A stretch of DNA of 57,183 nt from an uncultured Alphaproteobacteria bacterium. GTDB taxonomy: Bacteria > Pseudomonadota > Alphaproteobacteria > HIMB59. The stretch's first letter is position 1. Every line of letters starts with the position of its first letter. The position numbers and the translations under genes are program-made. Shown here one piece after another: positions 224-3,205 of this stretch. Location of the stretch: assembly GCA_902591315.1 (NCBI GenBank), contig CACJAI010000006.1, positions 1 to 57,183 of the forward strand, given 5' to 3'. The notes under the pieces are model-generated. The model made no database searches. It had not been told where the DNA came from and saw nothing but the letters and a program-made list of their open reading frames with translations.

Positions 224-302
224 GCTGATTTGATGTCAGAGAATATACCAATTAAGATTGATTTTTAAAATAATAAATGGAAAGATGTATATGGAGAGAT
301 TA

Positions 303-899
303 ATGGTTAAAGTTAAAAATCCCTTTGTGGAGGCATTACAGAATATTGCTGAAAGGCAGGATATTGGGAGTTTTAAAAAAATTTTTGATTATTTTGGTCC
401 AAGGCTGAAGTCTTTTTTAATGAAGTCAGGTGCAGATGATGCTGTCGCAGAGGAAATAATTCAAGAAACCATGACAATTATCTGGACCAAAGCTGATTAT
501 TATGACCCATCTGTGGCTTCACCAAGTACCTGGATTTATACTATTGCTCGGAATAAGAAAATTGACATTTTAAGAAAAACTAGAAAAGCGGTTTTGGAGG
601 ACATTGAGACTGCAATTTTGCCTCCCGTTGAATCCAAAGCAGATGAGAATATCGAACATGATCAAAAATTTGAAATGGTAGCACAATATTTAGATGATCT
701 TCCAAAAGATCAACTAGATCTGCTAAAAATGAATTTCTTCGAGGAAAAATCACATGGTGAAATCGCTGAGATTACCAAAATCCCATTAGGCACTGTAAAA
801 TCAAGAATTCGTCTAGCATTAGAGAAGATCCGCGGCAAATTGGAACAAGACGGAAGTATGGTTAATCTAAATAATGATGGCAGTAGTATGGTTAATTAA
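303..899 (+). CDS. rpoE: ECF RNA polymerase sigma factor, RpoE type (ChrR-paired)
   Basis: An extracytoplasmic-function sigma factor that directs core RNA polymerase to stress promoters. Region 2 is visible as an FDYFGPRLKSFL helix followed by AEEIIQETM and STWIYTIARNKKIDILRK. Region 4 is the C-terminal helix-turn-helix SHGEIAEITKIPLGTVKSR. The frame is open from TTG 258, but ATG 303 is preferred because GGAGAG lies at 293-298; ATG 291 is also possible. Six bases separate it from the ChrR-like gene, the arrangement of the singlet-oxygen-responsive RpoE-ChrR pair of Rhodobacter, so co-transcription is very likely. The tail carries a small duplicated GSMVN/GSSMVN motif of unknown meaning. Confidence 0.9.
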   Translation: MVKVKNPFVEALQNIAERQDIGSFKKIFDYFGPRLKSFLMKSGADDAVAEEIIQETMTIIWTKADYYDPSVASPSTWIYTIARNKKIDILRKTRKAVLEDIETAILPPVESKADENIEHDQKFEMVAQYLDDLPKDQLDLLKMNFFEEKSHGEIAEITKIPLGTVKSRIRLALEKIRGKLEQDGSMVNLNNDGSSMVN

Positions 900-905
900 C
901 AAAAA

Positions 906-1520
906 ATGACATTCGAAATCCTTAGCACACCCGTAAACTCACCAGCAAGTCTTTTATTCCAACAGTGCTTGGCTGAAGTTGATCCTGAGAATAGGTCTCT
1001 AAACTCAGCAATGAATGAGGTGGGTGGTTATTTTTTAGATAGGATTGATGCATTTCCACTCTCTAATGAATTATGGAATAAAGTTTTAGATCAAACAAAA
1101 AATGAAACATCATCACCTCAAATTGAAGACAATCATGATCCTTTGCTAAGTCAGTTACCAATTACTTTAAGATCCCATTTAAAAAATAAAAATATTAAGT
1201 GGAAATCTTTTAAAGATGTAAAAGTTGCTTCTATACTTCCTAAGGACAATAATGAAAAACTAGAGCTCATCCATGTAATGCCTGGTGCAAAGATCCCTCA
1301 GCACACGCACGAAGGCAATGAAAGTTTTTTAGTTTTACACGGTTCTTATAGTGATGAGTATGGAAATTATAAGCAAGGGTCTGTTCAAGTAAGAAGTGAC
1401 GACCACAATCATACCCCCGTTGGTCATGCTCAAACTGGCTGTATTGGACTAGCTTACACTCACGGTAAAATTAAATTCTCCGGTAAATTTGGTAAGCTAC
1501 TAAATTTAATCGCTAACTAA
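906..1520 (+). CDS. ChrR-like cupin anti-sigma factor, zinc motif missing
   Basis: The C-terminal half (about residues 105-195) is a ChrR-type cupin. It has HVMPGAKIPQHTHEGNESF followed by SDDHNHTP, placing likely metal ligands at H133, H135, E139 and H169 (or H167). The N-terminal half should be the anti-sigma domain, which in ChrR binds zinc through His plus HxxxCxxC. Here the first 76 residues have no histidine and one cysteine (C21), although the following GGYFLDRI still fits the family. It directly follows the sigma gene, so it is probably the sigma regulator. Whether it inhibits sigma without zinc, or only the cupin senses the signal, is unknown. ATG at 906 has no Shine-Dalgarno sequence. 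Confidence 0.75.
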   Translation: MTFEILSTPVNSPASLLFQQCLAEVDPENRSLNSAMNEVGGYFLDRIDAFPLSNELWNKVLDQTKNETSSPQIEDNHDPLLSQLPITLRSHLKNKNIKWKSFKDVKVASILPKDNNEKLELIHVMPGAKIPQHTHEGNESFLVLHGSYSDEYGNYKQGSVQVRSDDHNHTPVGHAQTGCIGLAYTHGKIKFSGKFGKLLNLIAN

Positions 1521-1526
1521 TTTTAA

Positions 1527-1925
1527 TTATAAAATATATAGAATATGCGCGGGAGCAATACCTGCTGTTAGTATTAACCTTAAAATAAAATAATCAGTTT
1601 TAATTATTTTTTCTTTGAAATAAAAAAAGAAATCAAAGCATAAAACTATGAAATAACCTGCTATAAAAAGCCCAATAGTTTCATCAAAATTTAAGTTAAA
1701 TGATAAAACTAAAAATGCATAAACAGCTGGGCAAACACTAAACAAAATAGCTATATTATTTTTTGATTGAAGATAAACACCCCAATACACTGCACCTAAA
1801 AATGACATTATGACTGCAGAGTAATAAACGAACATATCTTTATTAAAATTAAGAAATATTAAGTCGATGTTGTAAAAGCAAAGATAAAAGGGAATTAAAC
1901 CAGGAATACCTATAAGGTAAATCAT
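1527..1925 (-). CDS. DUF3429 family membrane protein
   Basis: A 132-residue, strongly hydrophobic protein with about four or five membrane-spanning segments. The N-terminal IGIPGLIPFYL and the SFLGAVYWGVYL stretch match the DUF3429 family of alpha- and gammaproteobacterial inner-membrane proteins. No biochemical function is established for that family. It overlaps the pterin dehydratase gene by four bases (ATGA), so it is the last gene of the aldo-keto reductase, dehydratase, DUF3429 operon. It converges on the ChrR-like gene with only six bases between stop codons. Confidence 0.7.
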   Translation of the reverse strand: MIYLIGIPGLIPFYLCFYNIDLIFLNFNKDMFVYYSAVIMSFLGAVYWGVYLQSKNNIAILFSVCPAVYAFLVLSFNLNFDETIGLFIAGYFIVLCFDFFFYFKEKIIKTDYFILRLILTAGIAPAHILYIL

Positions 1926-2164
1926 TCTTGATAAAGTTTATCGATTTGCTCTGCTAAATCTAGGTCTCTTTGGGTAACTTTCTGAACATCATGAGAAATA
2001 AGAGAAATGGTAACAGTACCGTAATCTAAAATAATTTGAGGATGATGATTTTTTTTCTCAGATAACATCGCCACTTGGCTGGTAAAGGCAAAGCTTTTTC
2101 TGTAATTTTTAAATTCAAAAGTTTTTGTCAATCTACCCTTATTATCTTTTGGCCAATCAGTCAT
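1922..2164 (-). CDS. phhB: Pterin-4a-carbinolamine dehydratase
   Basis: Catalyses dehydration of 4a-hydroxytetrahydropterin and recycles the pterin cofactor after aromatic hydroxylation; homologues also appear where no hydroxylase is known. The family signature is plain: EKKNHHPQIILDYGTVTISL with the HH pair, then SHDVQKVTQRDLDLA carrying the third histidine. At 80 residues it is shorter than the usual 95-105, because the N-terminal segment before W4 is nearly absent. The catalytic core looks intact. It sits three bases after the reductase stop codon and overlaps the DUF3429 gene. No phenylalanine hydroxylase gene is in the window. Confidence 0.85.
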   Translation of the reverse strand: MTDWPKDNKGRLTKTFEFKNYRKSFAFTSQVAMLSEKKNHHPQIILDYGTVTISLISHDVQKVTQRDLDLAEQIDKLYQE

Positions 2165-2167
2165 AGC

Positions 2168-3205
2168 TTAAGGTGCTGGTGATGGATTGTTTTCATGTAC
2201 ATCATTAATTTCATCAATAATTTCTTTTGATAATTCTATATCTACTGAATTTATATTTTCTTTCAACTGATCCATTTTTGTTGCACCAATAATATTACTT
2301 GTGACAAACTCTTGTTGGTTAACAAATGCAAGTGACAATTCAGTAGGGGTAAGCCCGTTATCCTCTGCAATTTTACAATATTGCTCTGTAGCAACAATTG
2401 ATCTATCATTGGTGTACCTAGTCCAATCCTCCCAAATTGTTAAACGTGCACCATCGGGTTTTTTTGAATTTCTATATTTTCCAGTTAACACACCGCAAGC
2501 TAAAGGTGAGTAAGCTAACAAACCTACCTGATCTCTAATGGATATTTCAGACATACCAACTTCATAAGTTCTGTTTAGTAAACTATATGGATTTTGGACA
2601 GACATAACTCTTGGTAAATTTTTATATTTAGACAAATTAATGTAATTAGACAAGCCATAAGGAGTTTCATTAGATAAGCCAAGATATCTAATCTTACCTT
2701 GATCGATAAATTTTTTTGCTGTCTCTAAGATTTCTTCAAATGGAGTCCATTCTTTTTCTTCTATATAATTTTTATATCCCAACCTTCCAAAAAAATTTGT
2801 TTTTCTCTCTGGCCAATGTAGTTGATAAAGATCAATGTAATCTGTTTGTAATCTTTGAAGACTACCTTCTAGTGCTTCGGTGAAATGTTTCTCATTAAAT
2901 TGTAGACCACCTCCTCTAATCCATCTTACATCAGGGCCTGCGACTTTTGATGCTAATATTACTTTCTCTCTGTTATTTTTTTGTTTAAACCAATTTCCAA
3001 TTATTTTTTCAGTGGCACCATATGTTTTTTCTTTCCCCTTAACTGAATAATATTCCGCGGTATCAAAGAAATTGACCCCTTTTTCCATAGAATAATCCAT
3101 TTGCTCAAACGCCTCATTTTCTGTATTTTGCTCGCCCCAAGTCATCGTACCAAGGCAAATAAGGCTTACTTGTAGATCAGTATTTCCTAAGGGTTTGAAT
3201 TTCAT
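2168..3205 (-). CDS. Aldo/keto reductase, Tas-like
   Basis: A 345-residue NADP(H)-dependent oxidoreductase with the TIM-barrel aldo-keto reductase fold. It starts MKFKPLGNTDLQVSLICLGT and has the expected catalytic tetrad: D48 and Y53 in FFDTAEYY, K87 in ASKVAG, and H130 in LYQLHWP. The WPERKTNFFGRLGY insertion and YSPLACGVLTGKYR are typical of the Tas/YghZ branch, which reduces small aldehydes and ketones; the physiological substrate cannot be read from sequence. It is the first gene of a three-gene operon and diverges from the Bax-inhibitor-like gene across a 71-base spacer. Confidence 0.9.
   Translation of the reverse strand: MKFKPLGNTDLQVSLICLGTMTWGEQNTENEAFEQMDYSMEKGVNFFDTAEYYSVKGKEKTYGATEKIIGNWFKQKNNREKVILASKVAGPDVRWIRGGGLQFNEKHFTEALEGSLQRLQTDYIDLYQLHWPERKTNFFGRLGYKNYIEEKEWTPFEEILETAKKFIDQGKIRYLGLSNETPYGLSNYINLSKYKNLPRVMSVQNPYSLLNRTYEVGMSEISIRDQVGLLAYSPLACGVLTGKYRNSKKPDGARLTIWEDWTRYTNDRSIVATEQYCKIAEDNGLTPTELSLAFVNQQEFVTSNIIGATKMDQLKENINSVDIELSKEIIDEINDVHENNPSPAP

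Follow-up and report, generated by a model that had tools for sequence, protein, structure and literature searches.

A ChrR-like anti-sigma factor without zinc ligands in its anti-sigma domain, paired with an ECF sigma factor in a marine alphaproteobacterial genus

In Rhodobacter sphaeroides, ChrR partners the sigma factor SigE (an ECF11 pair; PDB 2z2s, 2q1z). In this species the zinc of the anti-sigma domain is required for sigma factor inhibition, and the response to singlet oxygen depends on the cupin domain and its residues E147 and H177 (PMC6852236). The same review states that the role of the anti-sigma domain zinc in that response is unknown, and a model-peptide study argues for oxidation of this zinc site and offers dual activation (PMC6432622). 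Class I anti-sigma domains have a four-helix fold that contacts sigma region 4 through helix 1 and region 2 through helix 4. Among soluble class I factors, some 72% have Hx3Cx2C, leaving about 28% without it, and both types occur together within groups (PMC7406223).

We analyzed a stretch of 57,183 nucleotides, here called the window, from an uncultured alphaproteobacterium (contig CACJAI010000006.1). It encodes a ChrR-like protein whose second metal site, in the cupin domain, is intact beside a lost zinc clamp, which hints that the cupin site does the sensing. The features are as follows.

241..278, + strand: conserved upstream block, probably the promoter region of the sigma gene; near-identical in 18/18 genus loci
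303..899, + strand: ECF sigma factor gene, putative cognate partner (Sigma70_r2 and r4 domain matches; adjacency)
906..1520, + strand: ChrR-like anti-sigma factor gene, 204 aa (open reading frame; profile and structure-sequence matches)
906..938, + strand: short stub, residues 1-11, replacing the first zinc His and helix 1 of ChrR
939..1115, + strand: remaining anti-sigma domain, residues 12-70 (helices 13-25, 27-43 and 54-65 in a low-confidence model)
966..992, + strand: residues 21-29, with C21 and the former zinc positions L22 (His31), D26 (Cys35) and N29 (Cys38)
1188..1517, + strand: cupin domain, residues 95-204 (Cupin_7 match over residues 95-182; dN/dS 0.028)
1302..1322, + strand: cupin ligands H133, H135 and E139, invariant in 169/169 homologues
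1410..1412, + strand: cupin ligand H169, invariant in 169/169
1440..1442, + strand: C179, the equivalent of ChrR Cys187, invariant in 169/169

The sigma-chrR locus

The window protein matches the structure sequence of R. sphaeroides ChrR (2z2s_B) at E 1.4e-13 and Cupin_7 at 44 bits, above the cut-off of 27. Its score against TIGR02451 (anti_sig_ChrR) is 115.1 bits (E 3.9e-33), below the curated NCBIfam cut-off of 124.5; judged by these profile matches, it is a homologue of this ChrR family that falls under the family's own cut-off. It nevertheless has the features that characterize ChrR, a Cupin_7 domain with His/His/Glu/His ligands and an adjoining SigE-kind sigma gene. The best solved relative of the upstream sigma factor is R. 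sphaeroides SigE (E 9.7e-36; runner-up 1.2e-10). The sigma gene start at ATG 303 is conserved, with alternatives at ATG 291 and TTG 258. Two other identities for the cupin were rejected: a DMSP-lyase match fell below the cut-off (E 0.025), with DddK one among many cupin structure matches, and matches to the Sigma-1 receptor structure were no better than those to other cupin folds.

For comparison, 169 distinct ChrR homologues were aligned. They comprise 46 from the window's genus (45 full-length plus L042, which is truncated and misses the anti-sigma domain), 14 of the 16 found in a sister family, f2, and 109 from a phylum-wide search, namely all rows with E up to 1.5e-19 except the window's own, weaker and mostly cupin-only rows being excluded. 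Of 37 genus genomes, 32 yielded the protein, the window's own among them.

A sigma gene adjoins chrR in all 45 genus rows and all 14 rows of the sister family. With the IalB and argG neighbors named by Pfam match, the order argG, IalB-like, sigma, chrR occurs in two genus loci (L035, L037) and one f2 locus (L109), and its last three genes occur in L104, L107 and L119. Because this gene order is common to both groups, their loci probably descend from one ancestral locus. Upstream in the window, a divergent gene fragment (2-223, - strand) shares its upstream region with the sigma gene. The fragment's homologues in L035 and L104 belong to the IalB family, and this gene may be one of the targets of the sigma factor. 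Downstream and convergent to chrR (1527-3205, - strand) lie genes for DUF3429, pterin-4a-carbinolamine dehydratase and an aldo/keto reductase; by eye, seemingly the same three convergent genes also follow chrR in L035 and L037.

Missing zinc ligands, a kept cupin site and their distribution

An earlier note on this DNA held that the zinc ligands of the anti-sigma domain are gone, with no histidine in the first 76 residues and just C21 among the cysteines, while the cupin site (H133, H135, E139, H169) is intact. Both statements held up. The first histidine is H77, the only cysteines are C21 and C179, and C21 alone lies in the anti-sigma domain. Aligned to 2z2s_B, the protein has N29 at Cys38, and the same ungapped register puts D26 at Cys35 and L22 at His31; His6, the first ChrR zinc ligand, has no counterpart, as the window protein begins nine residues later. 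The four cupin ligands, together with C21 and C179, are invariant in 36/36 aligned genus proteins. Across the 169 homologues, the four ligands and Cys187 are likewise invariant, and among sigma-linked rows the ligands are kept in 78/78 of the zinc type and 46/46 of the zinc-free type; this invariance stems partly from the choice of sample, which consists of matches to a ChrR model without the weaker, mostly cupin-only rows. Cys189 is variable (Cys in 104 and Gly in 46 of 169).

Aligning the relatives in the clade, a check that the note had proposed, extended the loss: H-X3-C-X2-C with an upstream His or Cys, the signature of the zinc-binding anti-sigma factors (ZAS), is absent from the window protein, from all 45 genus rows and from all 14 f2 rows. 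Hidden ligands were rejected as an explanation. The open frame has just 206 codons, two more than the gene, and two longer-frame relatives (L001, L018) have no upstream His or Cys. Another reading frame was rejected as their source, as was sequencing error, since the 45 distinct full-length genus sequences come from separate assemblies and all lack the triad.

What the note overlooked is that, beside the ligands, helix 1 appears to have been lost in this genus. The His31 column is preceded by 21 residues in the window protein, by 20-32 in the 45 full genus rows and by 34-44 in f2 (counted over the open frame). A structure model of the window protein from a 36-row alignment has a mean pLDDT of 63, with the anti-sigma part mostly below 50; it predicts, with low confidence, three helices (13-25, 27-43, 54-65), and residues 1-11 are strand-like. 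In the superposition of this model on 2z2s_B (Z 14.8, rmsd 3.2, 142 aligned), residue 9 coincides with ChrR residue 18. Because the model matches ChrR from residue 18 on and the N-terminus is short, ChrR helix 1 appears to have no counterpart in the genus.

The sigma factors of the genus differ from others at their C-terminus. They have 25-27 residues after the SRIRLA motif in 75/75 loci (duplicates counted), compared with 9-15 in 69 of the 71 other sigma factors where the motif was found. In the window (840-899) this tail is about 14 residues longer than in most others and contains the motif SMVN twice. Within the genus, this longer tail accompanies the absence of ChrR helix 1.

How widespread is the zinc-free form? 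Among the 109 phylum-wide rows, the triad is present in 79 and absent in 30. A sigma gene lies directly upstream in 78/79 rows with the triad and in 18/30 without it, the linkage of two of those 18 (L082, L084) having been assigned by hand owing to long open frames. Within the same class but outside the window's order, the triad is missing from 18 of 49 sigma-linked ChrR proteins, spread over 13 genera and 9 families, and elsewhere in the phylum from none of 47. Ligand absence is not unique to the window protein, and because 18 of the 49 other pairs in the class are without the triad, zinc-free sigma/ChrR pairs evidently survive without it.

On trees inferred without the ligand columns, triad state must change at least 7 times among 137 rows, with starred branches forcing 3 of these changes, and at least 5 times among the 124 sigma-linked rows (2 forced). 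Both trees were built quickly, with SH-aLRT as the support measure, and contain many weakly supported forks; the genus was reduced to 14 rows in each, and the program gave a warning that two long branches, the window's genus and f2, join each other. One loss stands out most clearly, that of L097, L183, L192 and L198 within a zinc-type family (support 98, starred). These four retain His31, have Ser/Asn and Ala/Val for the two Cys, and share 53-60% identity with their nearest zinc-type relative. L198, which matches R. sphaeroides ChrR at E 3.5e-56, has Ser at Cys35 and Ala at Cys38, and on this alignment is a natural double Cys replacement close to that protein.

Twelve further ChrR-like proteins from six families (L128, L129, L130, L133, L134, L135, L136, L143, L144, L146, L151, L153) have neither the triad nor a sigma gene in about 1.1 kb upstream. 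Several are flanked by a cysteine-synthase-kind PLP enzyme and a short-chain dehydrogenase. These proteins may be regulators or enzymes that have departed from the sigma partnership.

How a zinc-free ChrR might work

Both domains are under purifying selection in the genus, loosest at helix 4, as judged by pooled dN/dS over 30 sequences: 0.047 for residues 2-11, 0.067 for residues 12-45 (helices 2 and 3), 0.257 for residues 46-70, 0.191 for residues 71-94 and 0.028 for residues 95-204. Since the cysteines of the anti-sigma domain have been lost widely in one class and every protein compared has kept the cupin site, the simplest reading is an anti-sigma domain held by packing instead of zinc, with the cupin as the sensor. 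We consider it probable that the window protein is a soluble, zinc-free ChrR-like anti-sigma factor of this kind. It would be co-produced with its ECF sigma factor. With the structural zinc gone, and in the window's genus the first helix too, we infer that the leftover helices are held through side-chain packing and still cover the sigma factor, much as the anti-sigma fold of E. coli RseA is held without zinc (PMC6852236). The cupin metal site (H133, H135, E139, H169) would then detect the signal, which would probably be either singlet oxygen or an organic peroxide product, and the sigma factor would be released. The earlier note had offered a zinc-independent switch and sensing by the cupin alone as alternatives; the two are compatible and jointly make the best reading, and the ligand loss itself proved not to be special, given the sister family and the other zinc-free pairs in the class.

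Several points stand against this explanation. The zinc requirement in R. sphaeroides is a counterpoint, helix 1, the reported contact to sigma region 4, is lost here, and the helix 4 region is the least constrained part of the protein. The model of the anti-sigma domain is mostly below pLDDT 50, and a joined sigma-ChrR chain, made by reading through the stop, gave no usable complex (mean pLDDT 57.7, pTM 0.40).

No regulon was detected either. The block of about 38 bases ahead of the sigma gene is nearly unchanged in the genus loci and its flanks vary, and the window contains no further match, at up to 3 mismatches, to the first 20 bases of this block. In five genomes, the block search returned just the rpoE site at 0 mismatches and one 3-mismatch site in G030, and a reversed-pattern control also gave one match. 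A looser pattern gave scattered matches, as did its control, and no regulon. By eye, the upstream regions of photolyase genes have no shared block (L224 and L227-L230 are uninformative, their start being placed inside the gene).

With regard to the signal, rhodopsin genes are present in 8/8 genomes searched, so light-borne stress is plausible. A search for sigma region 2 in seven near-complete genus genomes found a frame of about 680-685 aa and one of about 300 aa in all seven, by size the primary sigma factor and an RpoH-like one. The ECF sigma factor of this locus was found in 6/7 and is the sole further sigma factor in 5/7; G017 has a fourth region-2 match, and a contig end interrupts the locus in G004. 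In most of these near-complete genomes from a streamlined ocean genus, one zinc-free pair is thus the only ECF pair found.

Could the anti-sigma domain simply have decayed, with the sigma factor no longer held but controlled otherwise, for example through expression, and the cupin serving a different role? The joint loss of zinc ligands and helix 1 and the relaxed helix 4 region fit such decay, and the twelve sigma-less proteins indicate that the role can be left. However, sigma adjacency is complete in the genus (45/45) and in f2 (14/14), and selection on residues 2-11 and 12-45 is strong, so we hold decay to be unlikely.

Sensing by a thiol in a zinc-free anti-sigma domain ranks next and is doubtful. 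Here C21, beside the lost His31 position, would act alone or in a disulfide with C179. The two are the protein's sole Cys pair, C179 is invariant in all homologues, and C21 is invariant in 36/36 genus proteins and also present in the divergent members L071, L072 and L119. But f2 has Thr at the C21 position, which makes C21 no common property of zinc-free ChrR, and the R. sphaeroides response does not need Cys187 or Cys189 (PMC6852236).

We give less credence again to a stepwise history in which the anti-sigma domain zinc was lost first in this marine order, and then, in the window's genus, helix 1 was lost and the sigma tail gained. The clamp would have been rebuilt on both sides, with the tail replacing helix 1 and the cupin metal as the sole remaining sensor. 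If this history is right, the zinc would have a structural role that can be dispensed with, and sensing singlet oxygen would not be its function. Binding of a substitute metal by other side chains, such as E24, D26 and N29, is very improbable: E24 and N29 are invariant in 36/36 genus proteins, but across the genus Cys35 is replaced by D, V or S and Cys38 by N or G, which does not resemble a ligand set. Helix capping in place of the zinc knuckle was rejected, as the Cys35 column is too mixed (D, N, S, V, R, K, Q, H).

Comparison with known systems

With R. sphaeroides ChrR the window protein shares the two-domain layout, the sigma gene directly upstream, the cupin ligand set and the Cys187 equivalent, at 25-26% identity in structural alignments; unlike that protein, it lacks the anti-sigma zinc ligands and helix 1 and has Gly at Cys189. 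E. coli RseA and M. tuberculosis RskA are not ChrR proteins and are not known to have a cupin sensor. They resemble the window protein in that their class I anti-sigma domain is a helical bundle without zinc (PMC6852236, PMC7406223). The zinc-free soluble class I factors described in PMC7406223 also lack Hx3Cx2C, and the sections that describe them do not single out ChrR, the cupin or a missing helix 1. Zinc-free anti-sigma domains are therefore already well known; a zinc-free ChrR variant appears to be new, our literature searches, which covered an open library, having found no published account of one.

Zinc-free ChrR relatives in the Alphaproteobacteria, among them f2 and the L097, L183, L192 and L198 group, also lack Cys35 and Cys38, with the cupin site and the adjoining sigma gene retained. 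L097, L192 and L198 retain both His positions and L183 retains His31, whereas the window's genus has neither; f2 and all four of these proteins retain helix 1, and the window's genus does not. If such natural zinc-free proteins respond to singlet oxygen, they bear on the role of the anti-sigma domain zinc and on the oxidation model. Some of them stand near R. sphaeroides ChrR itself, and they offer a direct test of whether a ChrR that lacks the zinc site responds.
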